Shown piece by piece: positions 10,032 to 46,930 of a stretch of 62,120 bases of DNA; positions within the stretch are counted from its first letter, which is position 1, and the number at the start of each line of letters is the position of its first letter. Both the position numbers and the translations under genes were made by a program. The DNA comes from Aureispira sp. CCB-QB1 (lineage in GTDB: Bacteria; Bacteroidota; Bacteroidia; Chitinophagales; Saprospiraceae), in the NCBI RefSeq assembly GCF_000724545.1, contig NZ_JHBV01000036.1:1-62120 (forward strand). The letters run 5' to 3'. Under the pieces are notes generated by a model. It was not told the DNA's origin, did not search any database, and saw only the letters and a list, made by a program, of their open reading frames with translations.

Positions 10032-11633
10032 ATGAGAAGACTATATTCTGGAATTTTGGCAACTATAATTGGCGCATTATGTTCTATGCCAGTAGATATG
10101 ATTGCCCAAAAAGGACCAAGTGAAGGAACTTCTGGAAAAGTGCGCACCAAGATTGTAAGGGACTGTGAATATGAAGTCCTTCCAGGATTGGCAGAAATAA
10201 CGTCTATTGAAAAAATTCGACCAGCTTCTGAAAGCGCTTTGAAGTATGATGAGCATGAGGTCTTGTTTAAGTTTACTCCTATGGAGGGAGGAGAGATACT
10301 CGAAATGCTTAGAGATACAGAGATTGAATTTGTATTGCGCTCTCGTGCCATCCGTGTTCCTGTTGGACCTGAATATATTAAGGCTAAGAATTTAAAGGTA
10401 GGAACCAAATATGCGATGAACTTGCTACAAACTAGAAATAGAGATGCTTGTTTGGAATTGTATACGTACGAATCTAAAGCACTAGACAATGACTTGTTTG
10501 AAGCGTACGAGCATATTATTGATTATACCAAAGAGGCTTATGTGCAGCAATTGGAAGCAAAGGAACGAGCTTACGAGCGTAATAAAGCGAATGAAAAAGA
10601 TGTCGTTGTTGCAGAAACGGTCGACCCTACTGTGGAAACAGTTGTAGAAACTCCTATTCAAGAAGATGAATTTGATTATGGAGGGCTTTCTGAGGAAGAA
10701 ATTGCCAATTTGTCAGAAGCAGAAATGCGTGCCTTGGTCGAAAAGAATTTAAGAAAGAAATTTGAAGATGAAGGCACTCCAAGTTCTTATGACGGAGGAT
10801 CTTCTGGCATTGATGAAGCAAAATTGAGAGCAGAAATAGAGGCTAAGAAGAGAGAGGAATATGCAGCACAGTTGGCTGCTGCCGAAAATGGAAAGGCAAA
10901 CTCATCTACTACGACTATTAAATCAAATAATTCTAATAAATCTAGCAATGCAGCTAGTGATGCGATTCGAGAAGCAAAACGAAAAGCAAAGGAAGCTGAA
11001 AAAGCAGCTAGATTGGAGGAAAAACGTAAAGAGCAAGAGGCTTTGGAAAGAGCTCGCAAAAAAGAGGAGTTGAGACAAAAATTAGAAAAAGAAGTAGAAG
11101 CCGAAATTCAAAGAGAAATAGAAGAAAAGGCAGAAGCAGCTCGTTTAGCAGCTATTCAAGAGGCTAAGAAAGAAGAGGAAGAGCGTAACAAAAAAACAGC
11201 AGCGATTGAGAAAATTAAGGAAATTGAGCGAGAAATGGCTCAACGCATCGTGGATGAGACCAAACGTAAGGACTGTGTCTTTGGAGATCGTATTTCTGGA
11301 ACAATTGAAGTGATCAAAGTAAGCAAGGTAAAAGAGGCGAACTTAAGTCACTTGAAATATACGGAATATGAAGTCATGGTTACTTTCCGCCCAGATAATT
11401 ATGCTGATTTGTCTAAAAAAGAGAAAAAAGACTGGGAGGCAGCTTTTGTCTTTACGCTAGATCCAATGGGGCAAAATGCCAATCCTGGCGCTGGTTACAT
11501 TAGAAAGTATAAAGTATTCAAAGCTTCTAAATACCAAGGTTTTGCTCAGCCATTACAGTCTGGGATTTGTACAGAAATGATGCTTTATTCTCCTGATTTG
11601 CCTAATGATGGAGCTAAAATAAAATTAAAATAG
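10032..11633 (+). CDS. Secreted coiled-coil protein with unknown repeated domain
   Basis: A 533-residue exported protein of no family I recognise. It has a signal peptide of about 25 residues (ILATIIGALCSMPVDMIAQ). An approximately 120-residue domain follows (about 43-160): DCEYEVLPGLAEITSIEK, ESALKYDEHEVLFKFTPMEG, VPVGPEYI, LKVGTKYAMNLLQTR, then CLELYTYESKALDNDLFE. Residues about 170-420 are charged, Ala/Lys/Glu-rich and predicted coiled coil, with a Ser/Asn-rich break near 300. A divergent second copy of the domain closes the protein (about 415-530: KDCVFGD to GICTEMMLYSP). The same domain occurs in the genes at 11884 and 14914. No catalytic motif is seen; a structural or adhesive envelope role is a guess. 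An intrinsic terminator follows. Confidence 0.85.
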   Translation: MRRLYSGILATIIGALCSMPVDMIAQKGPSEGTSGKVRTKIVRDCEYEVLPGLAEITSIEKIRPASESALKYDEHEVLFKFTPMEGGEILEMLRDTEIEFVLRSRAIRVPVGPEYIKAKNLKVGTKYAMNLLQTRNRDACLELYTYESKALDNDLFEAYEHIIDYTKEAYVQQLEAKERAYERNKANEKDVVVAETVDPTVETVVETPIQEDEFDYGGLSEEEIANLSEAEMRALVEKNLRKKFEDEGTPSSYDGGSSGIDEAKLRAEIEAKKREEYAAQLAAAENGKANSSTTTIKSNNSNKSSNAASDAIREAKRKAKEAEKAARLEEKRKEQEALERARKKEELRQKLEKEVEAEIQREIEEKAEAARLAAIQEAKKEEEERNKKTAAIEKIKEIEREMAQRIVDETKRKDCVFGDRISGTIEVIKVSKVKEANLSHLKYTEYEVMVTFRPDNYADLSKKEKKDWEAAFVFTLDPMGQNANPGAGYIRKYKVFKASKYQGFAQPLQSGICTEMMLYSPDLPNDGAKIKLK

Positions 11634-11688
11634 TTTGTGCTTTGAGTATCAAAAGCGACAAAGCTTGATGACTATATTATCTTAAATG

Positions 11689-11730
11689 AAACGTGGCTCT
11701 CTTCAACTGTTGAAGGAAGCCACGTTTTTA
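11689..11730 (+). terminator. Intrinsic terminator
   Basis: AAACGTGGCT (11689-11698) pairs with AGCCACGTTT (11718-11727), with a second inner stem CTTCAAC/GTTGAAG, followed by TTTTATT. It ends transcription of the gene at 10032 and separates it from its paralogue at 11884. Confidence 0.9.
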
Positions 11731-11883
11731 TTGGATAAGAATTCTTTATGTTCTATTTCAGACTAAAACAAGCACTTTTAATCGTTATGATTGGTGCGTA
11801 ATGATAATTTGAGTTCCCCAAGCATTACTTTGTAGAAACTATGAAGTAGTAGCGTAGCTAAGTATTACAAATAATACTCGATT

Positions 11884-13398
11884 ATGATGTTCAAATTCTG
11901 TGTATTTCTTTTGATAGTTATGAATACCAACGGCATTGCTATTGTGCATGGTCAGCAGTTGCCTGTTGTTAAGCCACTGCCTAAGACGATGCAAATAAAT
12001 AGTGTAAACTATGAAATAATTCCTGGTTTAGCAGAAATAACTCAAATTCAGTTGATGAAAGAGGCCAAAGAAAGTGCTCTGGGGTATGATGAATACAAGG
12101 TATTGTTTCGATTTATACCAATGGAAGGGCATGAGTTATTAGAAGTGTTAAAAAATAAGGAATTAGAAATAATGCTCAAATATCATAGCTCCTCTGTTCG
12201 GGTAGGTGCTGCTTATATTCGAAAAATGAATTTAAGAGTTGGAACTCGATATGCTATGAAATTATTTCAAACACGCAGTGGAGGGCTGAATATTGAACGT
12301 TATTTTTATGAATCTAAAGTTCTTGAAAATCAATTGTTCAAAGTGTACGAACGAGTGATTGAGGAACTGAGTTTAACCCTCACATTTAATGCAAATGACT
12401 CTACGATTATAAGCAAAATACATCAAGAATTAACACCTGCTGAGCAACGTGCTTTGATTGATGCAGAACTAAAACCTATTGTAGACAACCATGCTTCTGA
12501 AAAGCCTTTCTTTACACAATCGTCATTGGATTTCCTGAAAAAACATAGTACGTTGTTGGATGAATATGAAGCGGCATTAGGGGCATTGGCTAAGCAAGAA
12601 GAGGAAAAATATCAACAGCGTTTGTTACAAGAAAAAGCTGAACAAGAAGCAGCTGATTTATTGGCGGAGAAGGTAAAAGCTATTGCTAATTCTGAAGCCC
12701 CAAAAGTTGCTCCAAGTACTGCAATAGTAAGAGGGTGTTATTATGAAGTAATTCCTGGATCAGCTGAAATAACAGCTATTGAGCATTGCCTGTCTGCTCA
12801 AAAAAGTGTCTATAAATATAATGAATACAAGGTGCTTTTTCGATTTACTCCTGAGCAGGGATATACTATTTTGGATAAATTGCAAGGAAAGGAATTGGAA
12901 TTTATGCTTTATTATCGAGATCAAAAAGTTTGTGTAGGACCTGCTTATATTCAACAAAAGGGATTAAAGGTGGGGCAACATTATCCTATGCAGTTGTATC
13001 AAAAGAGAGAAGGGCAAATTTGTACTGAGCAATATACGTACACTTCTGAAATACTGGACAACGATTTATTTGAGTTGTTTCCTCAGCGTTCTATGTGGCT
13101 AGAAAAAATGAAAAAAGAAACAACCCAAGTGTTGGATAGTCTAGAGGAGTTAGAGATCGATTCAACTTCAACTATTATGAATTATGAAAGGGCTAAAAAG
13201 GATTTGAAATTGGCACAATTGGATAAACGCTTGGGCATCATTCGAGCCAATAGAGCAATTCAATTGGCTAGGCAAAAGGCTCGGAATCTTAAAAGAATGG
13301 AGCGTATGAAATATAAAGAAATGCGCAAAAGATTAAAAGGAGAGCCCACTATTCAAGTGGGGAATCTACGTACCAAAACTGCTCATCCTCAAAAGTAA
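11884..13398 (+). CDS. Secreted protein with two copies of the unknown domain
   Basis: A 504-residue exported protein (signal peptide to about residue 24, ending near VHGQ). It carries two copies of the approximately 120-residue domain found also at 10032 and 14914: copy one at about 40-160 (VNYEIIPGLAEITQIQ to ERYFYESKVLENQLF) and copy two at about 281-400 (GCYYEVIPGSAEITAIE to CTEQYTYTSEILDNDLF). Between them lies an Ala/Glu/Lys-rich helical linker. The last 90 residues are helical and strongly basic (many Lys and Arg). Copy one lacks both conserved cysteines, copy two has both. It is followed after 1 bp by a membrane protein gene, so the two are co-transcribed. Function unknown. Confidence 0.85.
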   Translation: MMFKFCVFLLIVMNTNGIAIVHGQQLPVVKPLPKTMQINSVNYEIIPGLAEITQIQLMKEAKESALGYDEYKVLFRFIPMEGHELLEVLKNKELEIMLKYHSSSVRVGAAYIRKMNLRVGTRYAMKLFQTRSGGLNIERYFYESKVLENQLFKVYERVIEELSLTLTFNANDSTIISKIHQELTPAEQRALIDAELKPIVDNHASEKPFFTQSSLDFLKKHSTLLDEYEAALGALAKQEEEKYQQRLLQEKAEQEAADLLAEKVKAIANSEAPKVAPSTAIVRGCYYEVIPGSAEITAIEHCLSAQKSVYKYNEYKVLFRFTPEQGYTILDKLQGKELEFMLYYRDQKVCVGPAYIQQKGLKVGQHYPMQLYQKREGQICTEQYTYTSEILDNDLFELFPQRSMWLEKMKKETTQVLDSLEELEIDSTSTIMNYERAKKDLKLAQLDKRLGIIRANRAIQLARQKARNLKRMERMKYKEMRKRLKGEPTIQVGNLRTKTAHPQK

Positions 13399-13399
13399 A

Positions 13400-14821
13400 A
13401 TGACCTTGTACCGCCAGTATCCATATTCTCTAATAACTATTATCGTTAGTCTTTGCGTTTATCTAGTCGTCCATAAAACAACAGACAAAGCCCGAAATGC
13501 TAATCCATTTTTATACGATCAAGCAGGCTATTATAACTACCTACCTGCCTCATTTCTTTATCAAGATTTAACCTTTTCGTATTTGGATAATTTGTCCATG
13601 GATAAGAACTCGTTCTTGAGTCCGCAAAGTAGCAAAGATGGGAGAAAGGTAACACTTAATCGTTATGGCGTTGGCGTAGCGATGCTATTGAGCCCATTTT
13701 TTGTTATGGCAAGCCTGCAAGCTGAACTATCGGGAACGCCTGTAGATGGTTTTTCGACTCCTTATAGAAGCTGGATTTTTGGAGCACAATTTTTTTACCT
13801 CTTTTTAGCTTTTTTATTATTGAGAAATGTTTTGTTGCGGTATTATCAAGACAAGATTGTGGCAACGACATGCTTAATTCTTGCTTTAGGAACAAATCTT
13901 TTTTATTATGCATTGTATGAGCCTGTCATGTCGCATAACTATTCTTTTTTTTTATTTAGTTATTGTCTTTATATGACAGTTAAATGGCTAAACGAACAAA
14001 AAAAACACCAATTGCTGTTCTTGGGAATTGCGTTTGGGCTATTGGCAAATGTTCGATTAACCAACAGTATTTTTATACTGGTTTTGTTGCTATGGGAGGT
14101 CGGTACTTTAAAAGGTCTGAAGGCTAGATTGGTGTTGTTAAAATCCAATTGGCAGTGGTTGACTGTAGCTTTGCTATTAACTGCTCTTACCTTTATCCCA
14201 CAACTATATTATTGGTATTCAATGACAGGGTATTGGTTCGTTAATTCCTACGGAGTCGAACAAGGGACTTTTTTCTGGTTGGATCCCATGCTTTTTGAAA
14301 TCCTTTTGGGATATAAAAAAGGTTGGTTGGTGTATACTCCTTTAATGAGTTTGGGAGTAATAGGAATGTTCTTTATGCATCGATACCAAGAAAAGTTATT
14401 TTGGGGAACCTTGCTATATACTTTGTTGAATTGGTACATTATTTCTTGTTGGTGGTGTTGGTGGTATGGAGGAAGCTTTGGAATGCGCCCTTTGATTGAA
14501 TCCATGGTTCCTTTTTCTTTTGCGATAGCTGCTTTGTTGCAGTGGTTTTTTCAAAAAAAATGGCGGTTGATCCCAATTGTTATTATAATACTCGGAGGAG
14601 TTGCTTTAAATGCGCTTCAAACCTATCAATATACACAGGGGTGTATTCATAGTTTTGGAATGACTCGTCAATCGTATTGGCTTGTATTTGGAAAAATACC
14701 TCCTTTGTCTCCTGAGTTATACCAAACTTATGACCATTATTTATTAGGTGTCTACATGAACGAGATGACGGAGGCTGCTCGCGCAGAAACAAAGACTTAT
14801 AATGAGCGTTCCGAAAAATAG
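13400..14821 (+). CDS. Polytopic membrane protein, glycosyltransferase-like (GT-C type?)
   Basis: A 473-residue integral membrane protein with about 10-11 hydrophobic helices spread over most of the chain. A loop after the first helix has acidic residues (NPFLYDQAGYYNYLPASF), and a large outer loop near 270-310 is aromatic-rich. This layout resembles lipid-linked-sugar-dependent GT-C glycosyltransferases (GT39/PMT-like), and DQ/YY residues in the first loop fit, but I see no decisive motif, so the enzyme class is inference. It starts 1 bp after the unknown-domain gene at 11884 and ends 92 bp before a third paralogue, which ties it to that family; modifying these exported proteins is one possibility. 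Confidence 0.8.
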   Translation: MTLYRQYPYSLITIIVSLCVYLVVHKTTDKARNANPFLYDQAGYYNYLPASFLYQDLTFSYLDNLSMDKNSFLSPQSSKDGRKVTLNRYGVGVAMLLSPFFVMASLQAELSGTPVDGFSTPYRSWIFGAQFFYLFLAFLLLRNVLLRYYQDKIVATTCLILALGTNLFYYALYEPVMSHNYSFFLFSYCLYMTVKWLNEQKKHQLLFLGIAFGLLANVRLTNSIFILVLLLWEVGTLKGLKARLVLLKSNWQWLTVALLLTALTFIPQLYYWYSMTGYWFVNSYGVEQGTFFWLDPMLFEILLGYKKGWLVYTPLMSLGVIGMFFMHRYQEKLFWGTLLYTLLNWYIISCWWCWWYGGSFGMRPLIESMVPFSFAIAALLQWFFQKKWRLIPIVIIILGGVALNALQTYQYTQGCIHSFGMTRQSYWLVFGKIPPLSPELYQTYDHYLLGVYMNEMTEAARAETKTYNERSEK

Positions 14822-14913
14822 TGTTTGTTGTACACCAATATCCAGCCAAGAGTCATCTTATTAGTTATAAAGAATTGTAATCCTAAAAATATTCATCTTT
14901 AAAGCTAAACAAC

Positions 14914-15657
14914 ATGAAAAAAGTATCCTTTATAATAACTAGTATTTTTTTTATTTTACCAATGTGGGGGGGAGCTCAATCAGGTCTTAGTGCAATTGCC
15001 CCACAAACAAAAACTGTTCGAGGTTGCGTTTATGAAGTTGTGCCAGGATTAGCCGAAATAACAAAGATAGAGGTTAGTAAAGGTGCTGCAGAAAGTGTTC
15101 TGAATTATGATGAGCATAAAATTACATTCCAATTTACACCAATGGAAAGTGACAATTTATTGACTTGTTTAAAAGAAAACGAATTGGAGTTTACTTTGAG
15201 AAGTAACATTGCAAAAATACCTGTTGGTCCTCAATATATTCAACAAAAGAAACTAAAAGAAGGTACCAAGTATGCGATGAATATTTTACAAACTAAGGAT
15301 CAAAAGGCTTGTTTGGAGCAGTATGTTTACGAATCTAAGGCATTGGATAATGATTTGTTTGAAGTTAAAGAACAACTTATTCCTTTTATAAAAGCTAATT
15401 ATCCTAAGATATATAGCGATATTGAAGTAAAGTTGGAAGCTTGTTTGGCTACTCAAGACACAATTACGAATACCTTAGAAGTTGATAAAAGAAATTTGAA
15501 AGCTGTGCTTGAAATAGAACAAAAAAAGCAAGACTATAAAAGTAATGAAATGAAAAAAGAGGGTGCTTCCAATATTTATATTACCCGAAGGGCTGCGTTT
15601 AAAAAAGCTAGAAAGATAGCTCGTCAGAAAAAAGGGAAAAACAAAAAGAACAGTTGA
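14914..15657 (+). CDS. Secreted protein with one copy of the unknown domain
   Basis: A 247-residue exported protein with a signal peptide to about residue 22 (ILPMWGGAQ). One copy of the shared domain fills about residues 35-150: RGCVYEVVPGLAEITKIE, ESVLNYDEHKITFQFTPME, IPVGPQYIQQKKLKEGTKYAM, CLEQYVYESKALDNDLFE. Both cysteines are present. The C-terminal 90 residues are helical and end in a very basic tail (KKARKIARQKKGKNKKNS), similar in character to the tail of the protein at 11884. It is the smallest of the three paralogues and is probably the last gene of the 11884-13400-14914 group. No known family is recognised. Confidence 0.83.
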   Translation: MKKVSFIITSIFFILPMWGGAQSGLSAIAPQTKTVRGCVYEVVPGLAEITKIEVSKGAAESVLNYDEHKITFQFTPMESDNLLTCLKENELEFTLRSNIAKIPVGPQYIQQKKLKEGTKYAMNILQTKDQKACLEQYVYESKALDNDLFEVKEQLIPFIKANYPKIYSDIEVKLEACLATQDTITNTLEVDKRNLKAVLEIEQKKQDYKSNEMKKEGASNIYITRRAAFKKARKIARQKKGKNKKNS

Positions 15658-15872: not shown

Positions 15873-16355
15873 ATGGAAGGAAAAGAGCTTTTTAAGCAAA
15901 TGGATAAAATTAGTAAATTAGGAGCACTAATTGGAATTGCCTTTATAATTTTAATCGGACTAGTATTACAAGAAGGTCTATCTAGTGGGTTTCAAGATGA
16001 AAGCGCCTTGGTTGTTGAACAAGAAAAAACTGTAGTAATAAGAACCTCCAACAAAGTGGATGGCGATGTTATAGAAGGCAAAGACTTGTTTTTGCAAAAA
16101 TGTGCTTCTTGTCACAATATAGATATGGTTAGCGATATGATAGGACCTGCTTTGTACGGTGCGGTTGATCGATGGGGAAATTGGGCAGATTTATACCAAT
16201 GGGTACAAGATTATAGTGTGCTGATAGAACAAGAGCATCCTAGAGCTTTGGAAATGGAAAAATGGTCTCCGTCAATAATGACAGCCTTTTCTAATTTGGA
16301 TACAACACAAATACGAAATATCTTTGCGTTTGTAGAAATGAAAACGGGTTTTTAG
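15873..16355 (+). CDS. Membrane-anchored c-type cytochrome
   Basis: A 160-residue monohaem cytochrome c. One membrane helix at about residues 17-33 (LGALIGIAFIILIGLVL) anchors the protein. The haem motif CASCH is at residues 77-81, followed by MIGPALYG and a C-terminal MTAF segment whose Met may be the sixth ligand. The cytochrome domain is small (class I). It begins 215 bp after the previous gene and its stop is 1 bp before a second cytochrome gene, so the two form an operon. An electron-carrier role on the outer face of the inner membrane is expected; the partner oxidase or dehydrogenase is not in the window. Confidence 0.9.
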   Translation: MEGKELFKQMDKISKLGALIGIAFIILIGLVLQEGLSSGFQDESALVVEQEKTVVIRTSNKVDGDVIEGKDLFLQKCASCHNIDMVSDMIGPALYGAVDRWGNWADLYQWVQDYSVLIEQEHPRALEMEKWSPSIMTAFSNLDTTQIRNIFAFVEMKTGF

Positions 16356-16356
16356 T

Positions 16357-16767
16357 ATGAATCGAAAAGTACTTGGAATGTTGGGAGGAATATGGTTGTG
16401 TTTAACGAGTTGTAGCTCTGAAACAAACCCACCTCAAACAACTCCTGAAATAAAGAAAACAGTTGCTATTAAATCAAAAATAGGAAAAAAACTATTTTTA
16501 GAACATTGCGCAGCATGCCATAATACAAATATGGTAGACGATATGACAGGTCCAGCTCTGTATGGGGTAGAAAGTCGTTGGTCAAATCGAGGAGAGCTTA
16601 TTCAGTTTGTTCAAAATCCTCAAGAGTTAATTAACAACAACCATGAACGAGCCGCTAAAGTAGCAGCGTTGTGGCCTAGTGAAATGACCGCTTTTCCGCA
16701 GTTAGATAGCTCGGCAATAGAAGAAATATTAGCTTTTGTGAAAGAAAAAGGTGCATTAGCGAACTAA
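16357..16767 (+). CDS. c-type cytochrome lipoprotein
   Basis: A 136-residue monohaem cytochrome c with a lipobox LTSC (Cys19) instead of a membrane helix. The haem motif CAACH lies at residues 51-55. Like its neighbour it has NMVDDMTGPALYGVESRW and a C-terminal MTAF. The two cytochrome domains are clearly paralogous, so this looks like a tandem duplication in which one copy became a lipoprotein. It follows the first cytochrome after 1 bp. It converges with the response-regulator gene, 9 bp away. Confidence 0.9.
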   Translation: MNRKVLGMLGGIWLCLTSCSSETNPPQTTPEIKKTVAIKSKIGKKLFLEHCAACHNTNMVDDMTGPALYGVESRWSNRGELIQFVQNPQELINNNHERAAKVAALWPSEMTAFPQLDSSAIEEILAFVKEKGALAN

Positions 16768-23326: not shown

Positions 23327-24661
23327 ATGAACAACACACTTAAAAATTTAAGAGAAGCGGTTGCTTTATCTCCTGACAACGCTATTTTAAGAAAAATGCT
23401 AGCTAAAGAATTGATGAATCAAAGCTATTGGTCAGAAGCAGAAATGGAGTTAAAAGTCGTTTTGCGCTTAACGGGAGAAGACCAAGAAGCAAAACTTTGG
23501 TTGGCTCAAACCTATTGGGCATTAGATAAAAAGTCAGTTGCGGCAGTTATTGCAGAGGAATTAGAAGAACAAGGTTGCGACACACCTGCATTTACCTTTT
23601 TATTGGCACAACTAGCTTTGGAAAATAAGGACTTACCCAAAGCAAAGGCGTACTATGAAAAAGCCATTGATGCTAATTTAGCACTAAAAGATACAGGCTT
23701 TGAAGCACAACTTAAAAATACTATTTTGGATAGTGGCATGGCGATGGGAAATACAACGGAATCTTCTGAAGAGGATACACCTTTTTTTGCCGATATAGAG
23801 AAACCTGCTATTTCTTTTGAGCAGGTGGGGGGATTAGAGTCTATTAAGAAAGAGATTGCTTTAAAAATTATCCATCCTTTAAAAAATCCTCAAATCTATG
23901 AGGCTTATGGTAAAAAAATAGGAGGAGGCGTTTTGTTGTATGGACCTCCAGGATGTGGAAAGACATTATTGGCAAGGGCGACGGCTGGTGAAATAAATGC
24001 TTCTTTTATCAATGTTGGGATTAGTGATATTTTGGATATGTGGGTAGGAAGCAGCGAGCGCAATTTGCATGAAATTTTTCAAAAAGCTAGAGCTAGCAAG
24101 CCTTGTGTCTTATTTTTTGATGAGGTAGATGCCTTGGGAGCGAGTCGTTCTAACATGCAAAATTCTTCTAGCCGTTTTATTGTCAATCAATTTCTGGATG
24201 AATTGGACGGGATTCGTTATTCCAACGATGGTTTATTAATTCTAGCAGCTACAAATAGCCCTTGGTATTTAGATGCTGCTTTTCGTCGCCCAGGACGTTT
24301 TGATCGAATCATTTTTGTGCAACCACCTGATGCACCTGCACGAGAAGCCATCCTAAACTTGTATCTGGAGCAAATCCCTAAGGAGGCAGGAATTAATATC
24401 TCTAAATTGGTTAAGCAAACTAAGGATTACTCTGGAGCTGATCTAAAAGCTATTATTGATATTGCTGTAGAAAGTAAATTGGAAGAGTCTCTAATGCAAA
24501 ATAAAGTTGTTCCCATTACCCAAAAAGACTTGCTAAACGCGATTAAACGCCATCAACCTTCTACCAAAGATTGGTTGGCTACTGCTAAAAATCACGTCTT
24601 ATATGCCAATCAGAGTGGTCTATATGATGATGTTATGAAATATCTTAACCTGAAAAAATAA
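23327..24661 (+). CDS. AAA+ ATPase with N-terminal TPR domain (Cdc48/FtsH-like)
   Basis: A 444-residue cytoplasmic protein. Residues about 1-130 hold three to four TPR-like helical pairs (NLREAVALSPDNAILRKM, AKLWLAQTYWALDKKS). A classical AAA domain follows from about 165 to 390, preceded by ISFEQVGGLESIKKEI: Walker A GPPGCGKT near 206-213, Walker B VLFFDEVDAL near 262-271, and the second region of homology AAFRRPGRFDR with arginine-finger residues. It resembles one D-domain of the p97/VAT family. TPR regions probably bind a substrate or adaptor. There is no protease domain. The next gene, another TPR protein in the membrane, begins 1 bp after its stop, so they are one operon. Confidence 0.9.
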   Translation: MNNTLKNLREAVALSPDNAILRKMLAKELMNQSYWSEAEMELKVVLRLTGEDQEAKLWLAQTYWALDKKSVAAVIAEELEEQGCDTPAFTFLLAQLALENKDLPKAKAYYEKAIDANLALKDTGFEAQLKNTILDSGMAMGNTTESSEEDTPFFADIEKPAISFEQVGGLESIKKEIALKIIHPLKNPQIYEAYGKKIGGGVLLYGPPGCGKTLLARATAGEINASFINVGISDILDMWVGSSERNLHEIFQKARASKPCVLFFDEVDALGASRSNMQNSSSRFIVNQFLDELDGIRYSNDGLLILAATNSPWYLDAAFRRPGRFDRIIFVQPPDAPAREAILNLYLEQIPKEAGINISKLVKQTKDYSGADLKAIIDIAVESKLEESLMQNKVVPITQKDLLNAIKRHQPSTKDWLATAKNHVLYANQSGLYDDVMKYLNLKK

Positions 24662-24662
24662 A

Positions 24663-25916
24663 ATGATTGATCAAGAACAATTTTTAAACCGTGCTCAATC
24701 TTTGATAGATGTCCATCGTTATGAAATGGCTTTGCAAGAGCTGCAAAAAGCGATGGAAATAAATCCCGATAATGGGCATGCTTGGTTGCTAATGCTCATT
24801 TGTTATACCAAGATGGGAAAAACTGACAAAGCGATTGATATTGCACGTCAATTGTTAAGTACGTATCCCGAAGAACCATTGATTTATTTTCTTTTGGCAT
24901 TGAACCTAACGGATGAAGAGGCATTGGTAGAAGCAGAAGAAATTGCCTTGGTAGGACTAAACATAGCGCCTACCTATGTTAATTTACTAGGGTTGTTAGG
25001 GCGTATTCATCTAATACGAAAAGATTGGGAAGCAGCTCTTAGATATGCCGATGAAGGCTTGGCAATTGATCCGAGTGAAGTCGATTGTTTGAATATTCGG
25101 GTAAAAGCTCTTACACAGTTGGGTCGAAAGGAGGAGTTGAAGGCTTCTATGGAAGATACCTTATCGGCAGAGCCGAATAATCCTTATACGCATAATAATA
25201 TCGGTTGGTCAAAACTTCAAGCAGGGGATCACGAAGGAGCAAAAGAGCATTTTGCACAAGCATTACGCATTAATCCTAATTTAGATGATGCTAGAATAGG
25301 TTTGTTGGAGGCTTTGAAAGCGAAAAATTTTATGTATCGAATTTTCTTGAGTTGGATGTTCTGGATGGCAAACAAGACGGAAGGTTCTCAATGGTTCATA
25401 ATCATTGGCTTGTATTTTGGCGCACGTTATTTAAGGCAAATATCGGCGCATTATCCCTTTTTGATTCCTGTGGTTGTTTTATTGGCAATCGCTTTCTATA
25501 TGACATGGGTGATGAATCCTTTATTCAATTTATTTATCAAATTAGATAAAACGGCTCGGTATGCATTAACCCCTGAAGAATCTAGTGGGGCAAATGTTGT
25601 TGGTATTGGTGTTGCTGTAGGGCTAACTGCTATTGCTACTTATGCGCTCACAGGTTGGGATGAGGCTTCTTTGATTGCTATTTTTGCTTTGTCAATTGTT
25701 ATACCGAGTTATATGTATTTTGACTTTAAGGGCACAACGTATGAAATGCATGCGAAAGTCTCTGCCATTGCCTTTTGGGGGATTGGCTCATTAGCATTGC
25801 TTGGTGTGCTGTTAGGAATGTCTGGTGCCAATAGTTTATGGACGATCTATTTTCTAGGTTTCTTTGGCTATCAATTTGCTGCTAATTACTGGAATATGAA
25901 TAATTCAAATCGGTGA
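24663..25916 (+). CDS. TPR protein with C-terminal membrane domain
   Basis: A 417-residue protein. Residues about 1-220 are tandem TPR motifs (ALQELQKAMEINPDNGHAWL; ALRYADEGLAIDPSEVDCL; AKEHFAQALRINPNLDDARI). The C-terminal half has about five to six hydrophobic segments from about residue 230 to 410, with a short polar loop after NPLFNLFIKLDKTARYALTP. Start and stop place it 1 bp behind the TPR-AAA+ gene, so a physical partnership is likely: the membrane part could anchor the ATPase (inference). The family is not one I can name beyond TPR. Confidence 0.85.
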   Translation: MIDQEQFLNRAQSLIDVHRYEMALQELQKAMEINPDNGHAWLLMLICYTKMGKTDKAIDIARQLLSTYPEEPLIYFLLALNLTDEEALVEAEEIALVGLNIAPTYVNLLGLLGRIHLIRKDWEAALRYADEGLAIDPSEVDCLNIRVKALTQLGRKEELKASMEDTLSAEPNNPYTHNNIGWSKLQAGDHEGAKEHFAQALRINPNLDDARIGLLEALKAKNFMYRIFLSWMFWMANKTEGSQWFIIIGLYFGARYLRQISAHYPFLIPVVVLLAIAFYMTWVMNPLFNLFIKLDKTARYALTPEESSGANVVGIGVAVGLTAIATYALTGWDEASLIAIFALSIVIPSYMYFDFKGTTYEMHAKVSAIAFWGIGSLALLGVLLGMSGANSLWTIYFLGFFGYQFAANYWNMNNSNR

Positions 25917-26633: not shown

Positions 26634-26767
26634 GTACCAAAGCAAAAAATCTACGAAGTATTAATTTACAATATGCGTATATATTTTATCTTTAGTATCG
26701 ATCAAGTTATCCCCTTGCCTTGTTTGTATTTTCTAATGTGCGATTATTGCTAATAAATGTAAAATAT

Positions 26768-29700
26768 ATGAAATACGACTACTATTGTTATGTATTGGTT
26801 ATAGGAAGCCTATTTTTTACTGCTTGTAATCAAGAACAACCTGATATTGATGCGTTATTAAAAGAAAAGAAAGAAACAGCAGCAACACCCATAGAGTACC
26901 TTTTTGAAGAATTGCCAGCTGCTCAAACAGGGATTGATTTTCAGAATACCATTACACAAACTGCTACCATTAATATTTTATCTTGGGAATATCTATTCAA
27001 TGGAGGTGGCGTAGCTGTGGGCGATCTAAACAATGATGGGTTGCCCGATTTAGTATTGACAGGAAATCAAGTAGATAATAGAATTTACCTTAACAAAGGA
27101 GGTTTGAAATTTGAAGATGTTACATCAAAAGCAGAGATCAATGTACAGGATAAACAAGGCAAACCGTCTTGGTATACGGGAGTAACTTTGGCAGATGTCA
27201 ACAATGATGGTTGGTTGGATATTTATATTTGTCGGTCAGGGATGAAAGATTATTATGCCAAACCCGAAAACTTGCTTTTTATTAATCAAGGAGATTTGAC
27301 TTTTTCAGAAGAAGGGCAAAAATATGGGGTTAACGATGCTGCTTATTCAACAGGAGCTACTTTTTTTGATTATGACAAAGATGGAGATTTAGATTTGTAT
27401 GTCAACAATCATTTTGCAGATTTTAATCGAACGACTACTGTGGATAAAGTCCGTAAGAAAATAGAAGAAAATCCCGCCTTATTGGAAGAAAATTCATCGC
27501 ATTTGTATAAAAATGAAAATGGGACGTATCGAGATGTAACGGCTGAATTGGGGATGCTGAAATATGACTATGGTCTAGGAGTTGTAGCGGCAGATGTTAA
27601 TAATGATGGTTGGACAGATTTGTATGTTTCTAACGATTATACACAACCTAATGTCCTGTGGATTAATAATCAAGACGGAACATTTACGGATAAAATTAAG
27701 GAACAAATGGGACACGTAGCCTATTTTTCAATGGGCTGTGATATTAATGATTTTAACAATGATGGTTTGCCTGATATTGTGGCGGTTGATATGGCAGCCA
27801 AGGATCATGTAATGGCAAAAACTTCAATGGCTTCCATGCAACCTGCTTCGTTTAGAAAGCTGACAGAGTTATATGGTTATGTACCACAATATATGTACAA
27901 CGAATTGCAATTGAATAATGGCAATGGGCAATTTTCGGAGATTGCCAATATGGCGGGAACCGCAAAAACAGAATGGAGCTGGGCACCTTTGTTTGCAGAT
28001 TTTGACAATGATGGTCTAAAGGATCTCATCATTACCAATGGTTATAAACAAAATGCCTTGGACAATGATTTTAGAATGAAGTTAAGGAATCGAAAAATAG
28101 AGTTAAGAGGGCAGCCTATTCCTGAGGCAGAACGTATGAAATGGATTCAACAAATTCCAACATACAAAGCCAAAAATCATTACCTCAGAAATACTGGAGC
28201 ACTTCAATTTGAGGACATGCGAAATACTTGGATTCAGTCTACGGCTAATTTATCGAATGGAACAGCTTATGCAGATTTGGACCAAGATGGTGACTTAGAT
28301 TTGGTGACCAACAACATAGATGCACCTGCTTCTATCATCGAAAACAAAACAAAAAATAATGCTTATCTGCAAGTCGTTCTCAAAAGCAAGGAAAACAACT
28401 TTGCGGCTTTGCTAAATGCTAAAGTAATTGGTTTTAAAGGCGAAGAAGTGTTTTATCAAGAGTTGACCTTAACAAGAGGTTTTCAGTCTTCTGTAGAGCC
28501 TTTGTTGCATTTTGGATTGGGAACTGTTCAAACACTAGATCGACTAGTGGTTCAATGGCAAAATGGCAAACAGCAAACACTGAAGGCAGTTGCTGCCAAT
28601 CAACGTTTGGAGGTGTATTGGGAAGATGCAACGGAGTCTGTTGCGCCATTAATTAAAACAGAAGAATTAACCAACCAAGCCAAGCAATTGGGAATTAATT
28701 TTACCTATAAAAAAAGTAGGTTTAATGACTTTGAGAAAGAAATTTTACTCCCTCACAAAATGTCTACCTTAGGAGGTGCTATTGCGGTTGGTGATGTTAC
28801 AGGTGATGGCTTGGCAGATGTTTATATGGGTGGCAATCAAAATCAAGCAGGTCAATTGTTTGTTCAAAAAACTAATGCCACGTTTACTCCCAAAAGCATA
28901 AAGGCTTTTAACCAAGATAAATCCTTTGAAGATTTGGGCGCATTGTTTTTTGATGCTGACGGCGATAAGGATTTGGATTTGTATGTTGCTAGTGGTGGTG
29001 GTGGTGAAATTGCAGATCAACCAATGTTGTTACAAGATCGTTTGTATTTGAATGAGAATGGAAATTTTGTGCGTCAAAATAATTTTCCAGCGATTGAGTC
29101 TAGTACCCAAGCGATTGAAGCATTTGATTACGATCAAGATGGAGATTTGGATTTGTTTGTAGGAGGTCGGAATGAACCAGGTCGTTATCCCAAAGCGCCT
29201 AAGTCTTACTTTTTAGTGAATGATGGAAAGGGAAATTTTGAAGATCAAATTGGTTCTATTGCAAATGCTCTAGAGTATGTTGGTTTGGTAACAGATGTAT
29301 TAAGTATTGATTTTAATGAAGATGGTGCCTTGGATTTGGTGGTTTGTGGAGAGTGGTTTTCTGTTTCCTTTTATGAGCAAGTCAATGGTCGATTTCAGAA
29401 TGTAACGGCAAAAATAGCAGACCCTCTGAAAATGGGATGGTGGCAATCTCTAATGGCTTATGATTATGACCAAGATGGAGATTTAGATATTGTTGCAGGC
29501 AATTTAGGAACGAATAATAAATTTCATCCATCCACCCATCAGCCCATGAAAGTATATTTTAGAGATTTTGATCGAAATGGGACAGAGGATATTTATTTAA
29601 GTCTTAATAAAGAAGGCAAGGAACTTCCTGTTCGAGGACGAGAATGTAGTTCGCAACAAATGCCTTTTATTGCTAAGAAATACCCTACTTATGGGCAGTT

Positions 29701-30139
29701 TGCACAGGCAGAGGTGGGAGATATTTTAGGCGTAACGAACATTGATAGTTCTTTGGTGTACGAAGCTAGGACGTTTGAGCATACTATTTTTATTAATGAG
29801 CAGCAACAATTTAAGAAAACCATACATTTGCCTGCTGCTGCTCAAGTTTCTTTGTTGAGGAGTATGGTGTTGTGGGATTGGGATAAAGATGGTCAGAGTG
29901 ACTTGTTAGGGGTTGGAAATTGGAAAGATACAGAAGTGGAAACGGTTGCTTACGATGCTGGTATTGGAACGGTTTTGTTGGCAAAAAATAAGGCTTTGTA
30001 TCCTTTACCTGCCAAGGAATCTGGGTGGCGAGTCAAAGGAGAGGCAAGAGCTATTGAATTGCTTCCTTTAGCAAATGGAAAAACAGCGGCTTTAATTAGT
30101 AAGTATGGAGAAGGAGTAGAAGCTTATATATTACCATAA
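26768..30139 (+). CDS. FG-GAP/VCBS and ASPIC-domain lipoprotein (CRTAC1-like)
   Basis: An approximately 1123-residue lipoprotein. The start at 26768 is chosen because [11 protein letters not shown] leads into a lipobox FTAC with Cys20; an upstream in-frame start at 26720 would spoil it. The body has many FG-GAP/VCBS beta-propeller blades with calcium-binding loops of the form DxNxDGxxD ([48 protein letters not shown]). In the middle, around residues 540-620, is an ASPIC/UnbV-like segment ([18 protein letters not shown]). A second propeller follows. Such CRTAC1-like proteins are frequent in Saprospirales and Cytophagales; the role is unproven. It heads a probable operon with the hydrolase 10 bp downstream. 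Confidence 0.92.
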
Positions 30140-40450: not shown

Positions 40451-43345
40451 ATGAAGTATTTAATTCATTCTATAAGTTTGTTATGTTGTCTAGTTCTATT
40501 CCCATTTTCTACTACTCAAGCAAGTCATATTGTAGGAGGAGAAATGACCTATAATTGTTTGGGAAACAATCAATATGAGATTTTGTTAACCATTTTTAGA
40601 GATTGTGAGAATGGAAACCCAGGAGCTTATTTTGATAATCCAGCCATTATTGGTGTTTTTGATGCTACATCAGGGGCTTACTTGGGCAAAGAATCTTTTT
40701 TTCTAACGGTAGACGATACACTAGATTTATCCTTGAGTAATCCTTGCTATACGATACCCCCCAATGTGTGTATTCATACAACAACTTACAGAAGGCAAAT
40801 TACCCTTCCTTATAGAAGTGGTGGTTATCACTTAGCTTATCAGCGGTGTTGTCGAAATAATATCATTGCTAATATTGTCAATCCACAAGCTTCTGGAGCT
40901 ACGTATGATGTGGTTATTTCAGCCAATGCACTAGCTAATTGTAATAGCAGCGCAAGGTTTAGAGAGTGGCCTCCTTTTTATATTTGCCAAGGTTCTTCTA
41001 TCAATTATGATAACTCCGCATTTGATCCAGATGGAGATTCTATCGTATATAGTTTGTGCAATCCTTATGATGGTGCCACTCAAGGAGATCCTATCCCTGA
41101 TCCACCAGCAGGTCCTCCTTACAATTCTGTGGTATGGTTGCCACCTTACAACCTTAACAATATGTTGGGAGGACCCGATCCTTTGAGAATAGACCCTGTG
41201 ACTGGTTTGTTAACAGGCACACCACCTACTTTAGGAACTTTTGTGGTAGGAATTTGTGCCCAAGAATATAGAAATGGTGTTTTAATTGGGGTTACAAAAC
41301 GAGATTTTCAATATTCCGTAGGAGTGTGTACTCCTTTGCAAGCACAGTTTGCGGTTAATATTCCACCTTGCAATAATACGCTTTCGGTCTTGCACCTTAA
41401 TGCAAGTACTTCTCTAAATACGTCTTTTCAATGGGATTTTGGAGATAATTCACCTATTTCAACCGCTGTTAATCCATACCATGCCTATCCAGATACAGGA
41501 ACGTATACTGTAACCATGATTGCAGCAGCGGGACTTTCTTGTGTGGATACCGTAGAGCGCCAAATTACCGTAACACTAGATGGGGCAGATGTAGAAGTGC
41601 CTCCGCAAGAAGCTTGTTTGGGAGATACGGTGTTGCTTGTTGCAGAAAATGTATTGAGTAACTATAATAATTTAGTATCTTATAACTGGTCACCCAACAA
41701 CACCATTTTATCAGGACAGGGAACCGATTCTGTTTATGTTGTCGCTAATAGTAACATAAACTTGAGTGTAACGGTAATCAATGATAATGGTTGCCAAGAT
41801 GTTGATAATACCAATATACAATTACAATTAGTAGAAGCTAGTTTCGATAGTATTGCCTTTGATTGTAACACTACCTTGAGTATCCCATTTACTAACAATA
41901 GTGTTGCTGTCAACAATGGTTATTGGTGGGATTTTGATGGGACAGGGACCTCGACGGATGTATTTCCTGTTCATACATTTCCAGATACAGGACTGTATTC
42001 GATTACTTTAATTGCTGGGTATGGAGCATTGTGTCAAGATACATTTACTAGAGATATTTATATCCCATTGGATGGTGCATCAGTTCTGTCTACTTCTCCT
42101 ACACAAGCTTGCAAGGGAGACGATTTGATTTTAAGTGTGACCAATGAGCTTGCTAATTATAATAATATAGCAGGTTATGTATGGACACCAGATGCTCCGA
42201 TTTTATCTGGTCAAGGAACGGATTCTATTCAAATTGTAGCAGATGCCAATACGGTATTTACAGTTAATGTTATTAATGACAATGGTTGTGTCGATACCGT
42301 AAAACTACCGCTTCAAGTATTTCAAGTTAACGCTACTTTTGACACGACGGAATTGGTGTGTAACAAATCGCTAGATGTTCCTTTTACTAATACCAGTGTC
42401 GATCCTAATGTAGGATTTGTATGGGATTTTGGAGGTACAGGAACTTCGACAGATTTAAGTCCAACCCACACGTTTCCTGACACAGGGACTTATACCGTTA
42501 CATTGATAGGAGGTATTGGAACTGCTTGTCCAGACACCTTCTCAAGGACGATCTATTTGCCAATAGATGGGTTAGAAATAATAGCCTCTGATTCTCAATT
42601 GGTTTGTAGAGGAGATACCGTTTTGTTAACTGCTTCAAATGTTTTATCTTTATACAGTAATGTTGTAGATTACACATGGACACCAGGGACAAATATACTA
42701 ACTGGTCAAGGAACGGATAGTGTGGAAGTCTTGGCAAACGGAGATCTAGATTTTATAGTAATTGGCTTAAATGATAGAGGTTGTAGAGATACTGCTATGG
42801 CGCATGTTAATGTGAGTACAATGTCTCCCGCTTTTACAGTGGTTGCAATCCCTGATAGTATCTTTTTAGGACAGTCTTCTCAGTTGGCTGCTACCAATGT
42901 AGCAGGTTATATATACAGCTGGTTGCCAGATACAACTTTAAGTGCTTATAATATTCCTGATCCAATCGCTAAGCCTAGACAAACGACAACCTATTATTTG
43001 ACAGTTGAAAATCAACTTTGCACAGATTATGACTCTGTAACTGTTCGAATAAGACAGCCAGTTTGTGATGGTCCTGTTGTATTTATACCCAATGCATTTT
43101 CGCCTGATGGAGATGGTTACAATGATGTATTGATGGTGAATGGAAACAATATCGACGAAATGACGATGGCCATTTATAATAGATGGGGACAAAAGGTATT
43201 TGAAACCAATAGCCAAGATATTGGTTGGGATGGAACATTTGAAGGACAAGCTTTGCCACCAGATGTATATGGTTATTATATGAGATGCACGTGCGATGGA
43301 GGAGGTACGTTGTTATTAAAAGGAAATATTACCTTACTAAAGTAA
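40451..43345 (+). CDS. T9SS type B surface protein, three PKD-type units
   Basis: A 964-residue secreted surface protein. A signal peptide ends near ASHIVGG (about residue 25). The N-terminal domain (about 25-290) is cysteine-rich and starts GGEMTYNCLGNNQYEI. Three tandem units of about 165 residues follow, at about 296, 461 and 625; each has a PKD-like half (FDxxxxxCNxxL to FPDTGxYxVTLI) and an Ig-like half (ACxGDxxxL to SGQGTDSV). The C-terminal about 88 residues, VVFIPNAFSPDGDGYNDVL to KGNITLL, are the type B (gliding-motility-associated) T9SS sorting domain. It is the first of three paralogues in a row; a terminator follows. Adhesion or gliding-related roles are typical for such proteins, but are inferred. 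Confidence 0.93.
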   Translation: MKYLIHSISLLCCLVLFPFSTTQASHIVGGEMTYNCLGNNQYEILLTIFRDCENGNPGAYFDNPAIIGVFDATSGAYLGKESFFLTVDDTLDLSLSNPCYTIPPNVCIHTTTYRRQITLPYRSGGYHLAYQRCCRNNIIANIVNPQASGATYDVVISANALANCNSSARFREWPPFYICQGSSINYDNSAFDPDGDSIVYSLCNPYDGATQGDPIPDPPAGPPYNSVVWLPPYNLNNMLGGPDPLRIDPVTGLLTGTPPTLGTFVVGICAQEYRNGVLIGVTKRDFQYSVGVCTPLQAQFAVNIPPCNNTLSVLHLNASTSLNTSFQWDFGDNSPISTAVNPYHAYPDTGTYTVTMIAAAGLSCVDTVERQITVTLDGADVEVPPQEACLGDTVLLVAENVLSNYNNLVSYNWSPNNTILSGQGTDSVYVVANSNINLSVTVINDNGCQDVDNTNIQLQLVEASFDSIAFDCNTTLSIPFTNNSVAVNNGYWWDFDGTGTSTDVFPVHTFPDTGLYSITLIAGYGALCQDTFTRDIYIPLDGASVLSTSPTQACKGDDLILSVTNELANYNNIAGYVWTPDAPILSGQGTDSIQIVADANTVFTVNVINDNGCVDTVKLPLQVFQVNATFDTTELVCNKSLDVPFTNTSVDPNVGFVWDFGGTGTSTDLSPTHTFPDTGTYTVTLIGGIGTACPDTFSRTIYLPIDGLEIIASDSQLVCRGDTVLLTASNVLSLYSNVVDYTWTPGTNILTGQGTDSVEVLANGDLDFIVIGLNDRGCRDTAMAHVNVSTMSPAFTVVAIPDSIFLGQSSQLAATNVAGYIYSWLPDTTLSAYNIPDPIAKPRQTTTYYLTVENQLCTDYDSVTVRIRQPVCDGPVVFIPNAFSPDGDGYNDVLMVNGNNIDEMTMAIYNRWGQKVFETNSQDIGWDGTFEGQALPPDVYGYYMRCTCDGGGTLLLKGNITLLK

Positions 43346-43441
43346 ATAGATGGTTTGATAGAGTAATACGATGCTTTTAGGGCTATCTTAAAATAGTACT
43401 CTGATAATTAAAAAGAATCAGAGCGTGATAAAAAAGTAAAA

Positions 43442-43476
43442 GGGATAAATGATTGGTAGTTTATCCCGTTTTTTTT
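43442..43476 (+). terminator. Intrinsic terminator
   Basis: GGGATAAA (43442-43449) pairs with TTTATCCC (43460-43467) over a ten-base loop, followed by GTTTTTTTT. It separates the first PKD surface gene from the second. Confidence 0.88.
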
Positions 43477-43507
43477 GATAGCCCCCACAGCTCAAAACTA
43501 CTCTATT

Positions 43508-46500
43508 ATGAAAAAAGCACTACTCCATGCTTTAAAAGGCATACCCTTATTGCTGGCTCTCCTTTGCTGTTCTCAAAAAGCTCTAGCAACCCATATTGTT
43601 GGGGGAGAAATGAATTATCGATGTTTGGGCAATGATCAATACGAAGTTTCTTTGACGGTATTTCGAGATTGCGATACTGGTGTTCCTTGGTTTGATGATC
43701 CTGCTTCGATTGGTGTTTTTGATGGACAAACCAATGTGCTAATTTTTAGTCAATTAGTTGATTTAGATGCAGGAATCAATGATACACTAGATATTTATTT
43801 GCCTGATTCTTGCTTGATTGTACCCAACAATGTTTGCATTCATACAACCACTTATACCGATACGTTTACCTTGCCTTTTTCTTTGACAGGCTATACTTTG
43901 GCTTATCAAAGGTGTTGTCGAAATCAAGATATTGTAAATATTGTCAATCCCAATTCGACAGGAGCAACTTACTGGACATATATATCACCAGCTGCGTTGC
44001 AATTGTGCAACAGTTCAGCTGTTTTTAATGAATGGCCTCGGGTGTATTTGTGTTCAAGAGTTCCTATAGCATTTGATCATTCGGCAACAGATGTAGACGG
44101 GGATTCTATCGTATACGAACTCTGCACGCCTTCGGATGGTGCAACTAATGCGAACGCAAGACCACAACCACCCAATGCTCCTCCTTATCAAAATATCACA
44201 TGGCAAGCGCCATATGGTGTATCCAACGTACTAGGAGGTCCCGACCCTTTATCTATAGACCCCGTTACTGGTTTGTTGACAGGTACGCCACAAAACTTAG
44301 GCGTATTTTTGGTTGGAGTTTGTCTTAAAGAATATAGAAATGGAAACTTAATTTCGATTACTAGGCGCGATTTTCAACATGTAGTCGGAACCTGTGAACC
44401 ACAAACAGTAGCAGATTTTGACACAACAGGATTGCAATGCAATAAAGTGTTAACTTATCCATTTGATAATGACAGTCGAGTCGTAACAGGATCGTACAAT
44501 TGGATATTCGATACTTTGGGAACCTCTCAAGCTGTTAATCCTATATTTACATTCCCAGATACAGGACTTTATACCGTCACTCTAGTGGCGGGAATTGGTT
44601 CTCCTTGTTTGGATACTTTTTCTGTGGATATGGACATTAGAATAGAAGCCTTAGAATTATCAATGGCAGCACCACAAACGGCTTGCCAAGGAGATACCAT
44701 ATTGTTAGTGGCTACCGATACTTATGAAGGATATTCTGACTCAACAACATTTACTTGGTCTCCTGCGGCGGCTATTATCAGCGGACAAGGAACAGATAGC
44801 GTTTGGGTGGTTGTTAATCAAAGCACACAGTTTCGAGTAGATGGTGTCAATAACTATGGTTGTACTAGTAGTGCTTTTGCAACGATCAACATACGACAAG
44901 TGACGGCAGATTTTACAACAACGAGTACACCCTGCAATACGTCATTAACTTTACAGTTTCAAAATCAAAGTTCTAGCAACCCTACTAATAATAATTATCA
45001 ATGGCAATTTGGTACCTTAGGATTTGCTACGGCAACCAATCCTTTTTTTGTTTTTCCTGACACAGGAACCTACACCGTAACTTTGGTGGCAGGAGTAGGC
45101 AGCCTATGTGCTGATACTATTTCAAGGAATGTTTTGGTACAATTAACAGCAATGGAGTTGCAGCCAATTCCTGATGTCACTGCATGCAAGGGAGATAGTA
45201 TTTTTATTAAAGCTATAGATTTGTATAAAGATTATTCTACTTCTGCTAATTATGTTTGGACACCAAGTTCAGAGATTGTAACGGGGCAAGGAACAGATAG
45301 TGTTTTAATCATAGCCAATAACTCCACACAAATACAGGTATCAGGACAAAATAACTATGGTTGCCCCAGTACATTGAGTTTTGACATTGACGTTATCCAT
45401 ATAGAAGCTAATTTTGACACGCTTGATTTGGCTTGTAATACATCTCTAGCCATTCCATTTACGAACAGCTCCATTAATAGTTTGGGAGGTAGTAATTATT
45501 TATGGCGCTTTGATACTTTGGCAACTAGTGCGGCTACCAACCCAATATACACCTTTCCAGATACAGGAATGTATGCAATTGAACTCATTGTAGGAGCCAA
45601 TACCTTGTGTCCTGATACCATGTCATTAGATTTATATTTACCACTTTATGGTGTTGATTTGACACCAATTCCAGCACAAACAGCATGTGTAGGCGATTCG
45701 TTATGGTTAACCGTGGATGATTTGTTAGAACGTTATTCGGATAGTATTGACTATGTTTGGACACCTACTTCACAGATTATTGAAGGGCAAGGGACAGATT
45801 CGGTCTTAATTCTAGCGACCAATACGACGACTATAAAAGTTGAAGCGTTGAACAGTCATTTGTGTCGAGATACTGTTGCTACGACCATAAACGTATTGGA
45901 AGTTAATGCTTCTTTTGATACCCTAGATGTTTTGTGTAATACTTCTTTGTTAGTTCCTTTTGTCAATACATCTACTAGCAATCTAACAATGAATAATTAT
46001 GAGTGGAATTTTGAAAATTTGGCAACATCCACAGATGTTAACCCGCTATACAATTTTCCAGATACAGGAAATTATACCGTACGTTTAGTGGCTGGAGTTG
46101 GTAGTTTGTGTCCAGATACATTCAATATGGAGGTCTATTTGCCTTTACATGGTTTAATTATGGATGCTCCTGATGTCTCGGTTATCTGTAAAGAAGATAC
46201 GGTAGAACTAACGGTTACCAATGCTTTGGATGCTTATACCGATTGGGTCAATTATCAGTGGTTGCCGACCAATGAAATTTTTGCAGGGCAAGGAACCGAC
46301 ACGGCATATGCCTTGATGGATACTAATACCACTTTTATTGTAATTGGAAACAATGCGCATGGTTGCGTTGATACAGCTTATGCACAAGGGCGCATCATTT
46401 ACATTTCACCAATATTGACAACGACTGTAAACCCTGACAGTATTTTTGTTGGTCAAACGGCTCAATTAGCTACAACAAACGATATCAATTATCTCTATAA

Positions 46501-46930
46501 TTGGTTGCCAGATACAACATTGGATAATTATTTTATTTATAATCCCATGGCAAAACCGAGGCAAACAACTTGGTATTTTGTTTCGGCAACCAATCAATAT
46601 GGTTGTACGACCAAAGATTCGGTTTTAGTTCCGATAAAAGCTCCCGTTTGTGGTTTGCCTACTGTGTTTATACCCAACGCATTTTCACCTGATGGAGATG
46701 GTCACAATGATGTTTTGATGATTAATGGAAATAACATAGCAAGGATTGATTGGACAATTTACAATCGTTGGGGCGAAAAGGTATTTGAAAGCAACGACCA
46801 AGCGATTGGATGGAATGGTACGTTTAAAGGGAAAACACTGCCTCCAGACGTTTATGGCTATTACTTAAGGTGTATATGTGATGATGGAAGTGAACTATTG
46901 ACAAAAGGAAATATTACTTTGTTGAGATAA
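43508..46930 (+). CDS. T9SS type B surface protein, four PKD-type units
   Basis: A 1140-residue paralogue of the protein before it, with ATG 43508 chosen because MKKALLHALKG begins a proper signal peptide (ending near ALATHIVGG). The same cysteine-rich N-terminal domain (GGEMNYRCLGNDQYEV) is followed by four units beginning at about residues 301, 464, 631 and 798, then a short Ig-like segment and the type B sorting domain (about 1053-1140, VFIPNAFSPDGDGHNDVLMI). The extra 176 residues compared with the previous protein correspond to one more unit. Each unit has paired cysteines. It follows a terminator, so it has its own promoter. Confidence 0.93.
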   Translation: MKKALLHALKGIPLLLALLCCSQKALATHIVGGEMNYRCLGNDQYEVSLTVFRDCDTGVPWFDDPASIGVFDGQTNVLIFSQLVDLDAGINDTLDIYLPDSCLIVPNNVCIHTTTYTDTFTLPFSLTGYTLAYQRCCRNQDIVNIVNPNSTGATYWTYISPAALQLCNSSAVFNEWPRVYLCSRVPIAFDHSATDVDGDSIVYELCTPSDGATNANARPQPPNAPPYQNITWQAPYGVSNVLGGPDPLSIDPVTGLLTGTPQNLGVFLVGVCLKEYRNGNLISITRRDFQHVVGTCEPQTVADFDTTGLQCNKVLTYPFDNDSRVVTGSYNWIFDTLGTSQAVNPIFTFPDTGLYTVTLVAGIGSPCLDTFSVDMDIRIEALELSMAAPQTACQGDTILLVATDTYEGYSDSTTFTWSPAAAIISGQGTDSVWVVVNQSTQFRVDGVNNYGCTSSAFATINIRQVTADFTTTSTPCNTSLTLQFQNQSSSNPTNNNYQWQFGTLGFATATNPFFVFPDTGTYTVTLVAGVGSLCADTISRNVLVQLTAMELQPIPDVTACKGDSIFIKAIDLYKDYSTSANYVWTPSSEIVTGQGTDSVLIIANNSTQIQVSGQNNYGCPSTLSFDIDVIHIEANFDTLDLACNTSLAIPFTNSSINSLGGSNYLWRFDTLATSAATNPIYTFPDTGMYAIELIVGANTLCPDTMSLDLYLPLYGVDLTPIPAQTACVGDSLWLTVDDLLERYSDSIDYVWTPTSQIIEGQGTDSVLILATNTTTIKVEALNSHLCRDTVATTINVLEVNASFDTLDVLCNTSLLVPFVNTSTSNLTMNNYEWNFENLATSTDVNPLYNFPDTGNYTVRLVAGVGSLCPDTFNMEVYLPLHGLIMDAPDVSVICKEDTVELTVTNALDAYTDWVNYQWLPTNEIFAGQGTDTAYALMDTNTTFIVIGNNAHGCVDTAYAQGRIIYISPILTTTVNPDSIFVGQTAQLATTNDINYLYNWLPDTTLDNYFIYNPMAKPRQTTWYFVSATNQYGCTTKDSVLVPIKAPVCGLPTVFIPNAFSPDGDGHNDVLMINGNNIARIDWTIYNRWGEKVFESNDQAIGWNGTFKGKTLPPDVYGYYLRCICDDGSELLTKGNITLLR

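Follow-up and report, generated by a model that had tools for sequence, protein, structure and literature searches.

The question raised by this locus is which domain is shared by three neighbouring genes of Aureispira sp. CCB-QB1, and what the proteins built around it could do. The genes, here called A, B and C, occupy positions 10032 to 15657 of the window, that is, of the whole analysed stretch of 62,120 nucleotides (contig NZ_JHBV01000036.1, positions 1 to 62,120). An initial annotation, made from the sequence alone, had ascribed to them five copies of an exported domain that it could not place in a known family.

Five copies of one domain

All three open reading frames (ORFs) were recovered as annotated, on the plus strand: A at 10032..11633 (533 aa), B at 11884..13398 (504 aa) and C at 14914..15657 (247 aa). 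A search of the same genome with protein C (E<=0.1) produced five places, every one inside the window: 14914-15654, 10122-10721, 12691-13329, 11968-12369 and, weakly, 11250-11630 (E 0.0137). The fifth copy (A residues 407-533) scores 38.7 bits with a hidden Markov model (HMM) of the four clear copies, whereas the best of 2000 segment shuffles scores 10.9. Thus the genes carry five real copies of one domain of about 125 residues, the fifth being strongly diverged. It has 25% identity with copy 1 in the alignment. The motifs quoted in the initial annotation match the other four copies, but the fifth has related, different ones.

The solo, double and split layouts described earlier follow from the domain positions. 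Protein A consists of a signal-like N-terminus, domain copy A1 (10140..10526, residues 37-165, Cys45 and Cys140; HMM and AlphaFold model), an acidic linker, a charged helix of about 98 residues and domain copy A2 (11253..11630, residues 408-533, Cys415 and Cys513). The latter is divergent, was recognised by its HMM score and by a secondary-structure order like that of A1, and ends the protein with KIKLK. Protein B contains copy B1 (11980..12411, envelope residues 33-176), in which both cysteines are absent, and copy B2 (12712..13143, envelope residues 277-420, Cys285 and Cys380). The only copy in protein C, C1, has envelope coordinates 15001..15432 (residues 30-173, Cys38 and Cys133); the last three copies were delimited by the HMM. 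The tails of B (pI 10.5) and C (pI 9.9) are indeed basic, while heptad counting does not support the coiled coil ascribed to A (see below).

The cysteines, spaced by 92-98 residues, behave as a unit. Allowing a few columns of slack, both are present in 25 of 29 copies (23 in alignment A4 and six more in alignment A1), both are absent in four, and one alone was never seen. All four copies without cysteines are orthologues of B1, so the joint loss was probably a single event. The joint pattern, together with export, makes it likely that the pair forms a disulfide.

No known family was found to account for the domain. Proteins A, B and C have no match above the curated cut-offs in Pfam or NCBIfam, a PDB sequence search with two profiles gave no match at E<=10, and the PHROGs search returned one listing (E 0.095). 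When 19 single domains were compared with Pfam at E<=1, all listings were below the cut-offs and no family was common to more than two of the 19. The clear hit to a known domain family that was to refute novelty was thus found neither in Pfam and NCBIfam nor among PDB sequences. Two individual candidates were rejected: AbrB-like for B (E 1.7e-4, 22.1 bits against a cut-off of 25, over 21 residues only) and DUF4864 for C (E 0.011, below the cut-off). None of the titles listed for Aureispira, the Saprospira grandis genome, ixotrophy or rhapidosomes dealt with such a protein, and the one paper on the combination of single alpha-helix, OB-fold and periplasm was a review of efflux adaptors. The domain appears to be a new sequence family, without a name in the libraries searched so far, although its fold is probably already known.

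Predicted structure

The AlphaFold model of A1 (10140-10532) has a mean predicted local distance difference test (pLDDT) of 89.6 and a predicted template modelling score (pTM) of 0.82. According to DSSP it contains five strands in the order strand-strand-strand-helix-strand-strand, with the helix between strands 3 and 4, as in the oligonucleotide/oligosaccharide-binding (OB) fold. The latter is a closed barrel with strand order 1-2-3-5-4-1. In the full-length model, A2 has the elements of A1 in a similar order with an extra helix, at lower confidence. Structural matches are weak (best Foldseek E 0.077), and in the viral structure library there was none at E<=0.001 (best 0.024). The ranges of A1 and A2 both draw Mop/ModE, DNA-ligase and EF-P/eIF5A-like chains among these weak matches, all of which we take to be of the OB type. 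Judging from the order of elements and from the kind of chains matched, the fold is probably OB-like.

The two domains of A are separated by a predicted long charged helix (10977..11270, residues 316-413). It is a 98-residue helix in the full-length model, where it has numbers 291-388 (protein numbering minus 25), and composition and charge-pair counts agree with it. Residues 308-406 are 29% K/R, 28% D/E and 19% Ala. With I, L, M, V, F, Y and W counted as hydrophobic and Ala left out, such residues take up 5 of the 28 a/d positions in the best register and make up 15 of all 99 residues, so that no clear hydrophobic heptad pattern of a coiled coil is observed. The helix has 27 opposite-charge pairs at i,i+3, where shuffles average 16.0, and 19 at i,i+4 against 15.9, a difference that is not significant. 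In the orthologue from genome G105 the corresponding counts are 31 against 22.8 and 43 against 22.6. Taken together, the heptad and pair counts fit a charged single alpha-helix (ER/K type) better than a coiled coil. Since an alpha-helix rises 0.15 nm per residue, 98 residues would span about 15 nm.

Distribution and descent

In the family draw, the domain profile matched 15 of 298 genomes at E<=0.01. Two partial matches, in G016 (E about 0.0099) and G248 (E about 0.0095), were dropped as chance, as was a second match in G005 (E 0.005). The remaining 13 genomes include G005, with a relic, and G007, with a fragment of 26 codons at a contig edge; G001 and G004 bring the carriers to 15. The order draw gave three matches in 298 genomes, and the phylum draws gave the genome itself only (1 of 395 with alignment A1, 1 of 296 with alignment A4). 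The carriers found all belong to a single family of the Bacteroidota. No match was found in the plasmid search with A, nor was the domain detected in G006, which is 88% complete.

Within the genus Aureispira, A was found in G001-G004 and B-type genes in G001, G003 and G004, while C was seen only in the window species (G000 and G156), and a pattern scan of genome contigs with C found no relative. Outside the genus, A-type genes occur in G085 and G105, which are classified in two further genera, and in four genomes of genus g79. The layout of A in G001-G004, G086, G085 and G105 is that of the window gene. A scan of genome contigs with the A alignment yielded seven loci, titled Aureispira, Saprospira grandis (Lewin, DSM 2844), Saprospiraceae and Chitinophagales. 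A second architecture occurs in G100, the sole genome of its genus sampled: a 589-aa protein (L046:5127-6896, minus strand) that bears a lipobox-like GFMSC and four copies in tandem, all of which have a cysteine pair of their own. Among 60 relatives of G100, matches were found in G100 and G005.

The neighbourhood of A is partly conserved. A gene resembling queE by eye adjoins A divergently in the window, G001, G002, G003 and G086, which supports the orthology of A; in the parts of G004, G085 and G105 that were read, it does not adjoin A. The relic in G005 (L066:4764-4999) retains approximately the last 43 codons of the C-terminal domain in an intergenic gap of 236 bases. A gene that looks FG-GAP-like by eye adjoins both this relic and the intact A of G004. 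The window also encodes an FG-GAP/ASPIC repeat protein (26720-30139, plus strand), similar by eye to these neighbours.

In a Lon tree of 30 rows, rooted at midpoint, a branch supported at 100/100 sets apart the 11 A-type genomes, counting the G005 relic and the G007 edge fragment. On the opposite side are G100, represented by 365 Lon residues only, and 18 genomes without the gene, which we selected ourselves and which include G016 and G248. G156, G244 and G287 were left out of the tree, as was G006, for which there was no Lon match. In the domain tree, A2 (99/98), B1 (97/95) and B2 (99/97) form single groups. B1 and B2 are joined in one group (82/80), which together with C lies among the A1 copies from this genus (85/96); the tree does not fix the place of C among them, and the G100 domains form long branches. 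A thus predates the other two genes, and B and C would most simply be later duplicates of its A1 head in Aureispira.

Purifying selection acts on A1 as well as on A2. In comparisons with G001 and G003, the ratios of nonsynonymous to synonymous rates (dN/dS), approximate because dS is high, lie at 0.026-0.037 for these two domains, and the linker has 0.071-0.126; against G001 they are 0.032 for A1, 0.034 for A2 and 0.126 for the linker. One B domain was not computable.

Export and localisation

By eye, the N-termini of A, B and C are signal-like, in agreement with the initial annotation of the proteins as exported. Searches of Pfam and NCBIfam at E<=1 gave no sorting domain of the type IX secretion system (T9SS) in any of them. 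The same Pfam library finds three window proteins that match CHU_C above the cut-off and one that matches Por_Secre_tail below it (25.1 bits against 27). The three with CHU_C, a T9SS sorting domain, are large PKD-domain proteins encoded one after another at 40451-49520 (plus strand). Judged by eye, the signal ends in a lipobox cysteine only in the G100 relative and in none of A, B and C. In A, Cys17 follows Ala-Leu, and several orthologues lack this residue; B has a cysteine at position 6, and C none before position 38. The lipoprotein-like relative in G100 points to a membrane location, and we favour the periplasm or the outer membrane as the site of action.

Possible role and alternative explanations

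We propose, with a probability of roughly 40%, that A is an exported envelope spacer or adaptor with two disulfide-locked heads, and that B and C present the same heads on basic tails. The heads, OB-like barrels, would be exported across the inner membrane, and the disulfide would tie the beginning of strand one to a position shortly before the final strand. A single stiff charged helix could then hold the two heads of A about 15 nm apart and let the protein bridge a pair of partner sites, probably periplasmic or at the outer membrane. In B and C, the later duplicates, the basic tails may hold the heads to anionic envelope polymers. The design is simple and testable.

The distribution of A might point to another role. 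Aureispira is reportedly ixotrophic (Lien et al. 2024). The searches turned up A-type genes in no lineage other than Saprospira, Aureispira and close relatives, and Saprospira grandis is described as a gliding predator that catches prey by extracellular sticky material, a habit termed ixotrophy (PMC10508125). A, B and C could be surface-exposed or released adhesive or matrix proteins within this prey-catching material of filamentous gliders, and proteins with several heads and basic tails would be well suited to cross-linking. However, no T9SS sorting domain was found in the three proteins, and plain vertical descent in one branch would yield an equal pattern; moreover, this branch includes metagenome-assembled genomes without known lifestyle. 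One branch amounts to one event, and thus the link between the distribution of A and predation is weak. We consider this explanation unlikely. A bolder reading is that gene A originated where the Saprospira-Aureispira branch begins and encodes a structural element of envelope machinery peculiar to these filamentous, gliding and prey-catching bacteria. It would be a rigid dumbbell of about 15 nm tying that machinery to the wall or the outer membrane, and B and C would be elaborations within Aureispira. This is a speculation that we regard as improbable. The distribution takes in a known ixotrophic predator, S. grandis. Should A prove to belong to the capture or gliding apparatus, it would offer a way into those parts of the machinery for which no homologues are known; otherwise it remains a defined envelope protein from a family that is poorly annotated.

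The remaining alternatives concern the heads. They might be so divergent that the profile searches overlooked their membership in an already named family of bacterial envelope proteins with an OB-type fold, and the small bacterial chains 2l0c, 3rd4 and 3q6c (DUF2500) do appear among the weak structural matches. On the other hand, the Pfam and NCBIfam results given above, with nothing above the cut-offs and, at E<=1 in Pfam, nothing in more than two single domains, make such an oversight quite unlikely. The recurrence of Mop, ModE and tungbindin chains among the same matches would be explained if the heads bound a small ligand, such as an oxyanion in the manner of Mop-type domains, making A a bivalent periplasmic sensor or buffer; this seems improbable to us. 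Very unlikely, finally, is a module for protein-protein interaction or protease inhibition like the NTR/C345C domains of complement C3 and netrins. These are OB folds with disulfides, but the Z score of the match equals that of unrelated rows, identity in the NTR/C345C rows is 10-17%, and the PDB sequence search, as noted, found nothing. Among these explanations we retain the disulfide-locked envelope spacer as the working one.

Genomic context

Gene A is followed by a terminator-like hairpin with a T run (11688..11728, plus strand; the fold of 11684-11740 has -22.9 kcal/mol, z -5.68), and therefore A is probably a transcription unit of its own. Scans of the 330 bases preceding A, B, the gene at 13400, C and the gene at 15873 revealed no simple promoter pattern of the Bacteroidota type. 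Between B and C, the region 13400-14821 (plus strand) encodes a 473-aa membrane protein that looks like a glycosyltransferase by eye and has no Pfam match at E<=1. Its gene starts two bases past the last base of B, and in G001 a protein resembling its product is likewise encoded 3' of B (L019:3970-5382). Downstream of C are two adjoining genes for cytochrome c proteins (15873-16355 and 16357-16767, plus strand). Elsewhere in the window, 23327-25916 (plus strand) encodes an AAA ATPase with weak TPR matches and then a TPR protein, and 53208-55694 (minus strand) encodes a protein that combines a Mur-ligase middle domain with both domains of alanine racemase.

Comparison with known systems

The domain shares with the OB fold the strand-strand-strand-helix-strand-strand order of A1 and the similar order of A2. 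It differs in lacking a match to any sequence family, in the conserved cysteine pair and in export, and the best structural match has the Foldseek E-value of 0.077 quoted above. The NTR/C345C domains (of complement C3 and of netrin) are likewise exported, and some 78-82 residues can be aligned with them. The molybdate/tungstate-binding Mop domains (MopII, ModE, tungbindin) are a recurrent weak match at the level of the fold. At the level of the whole protein, A can be compared with periplasmic helical rods of the TolA type, which also have a long K/E/A-rich helix bearing a globular domain in the envelope. Unlike these rods, A has a globular domain at either end of the helix, together with a signal-like N-terminus.

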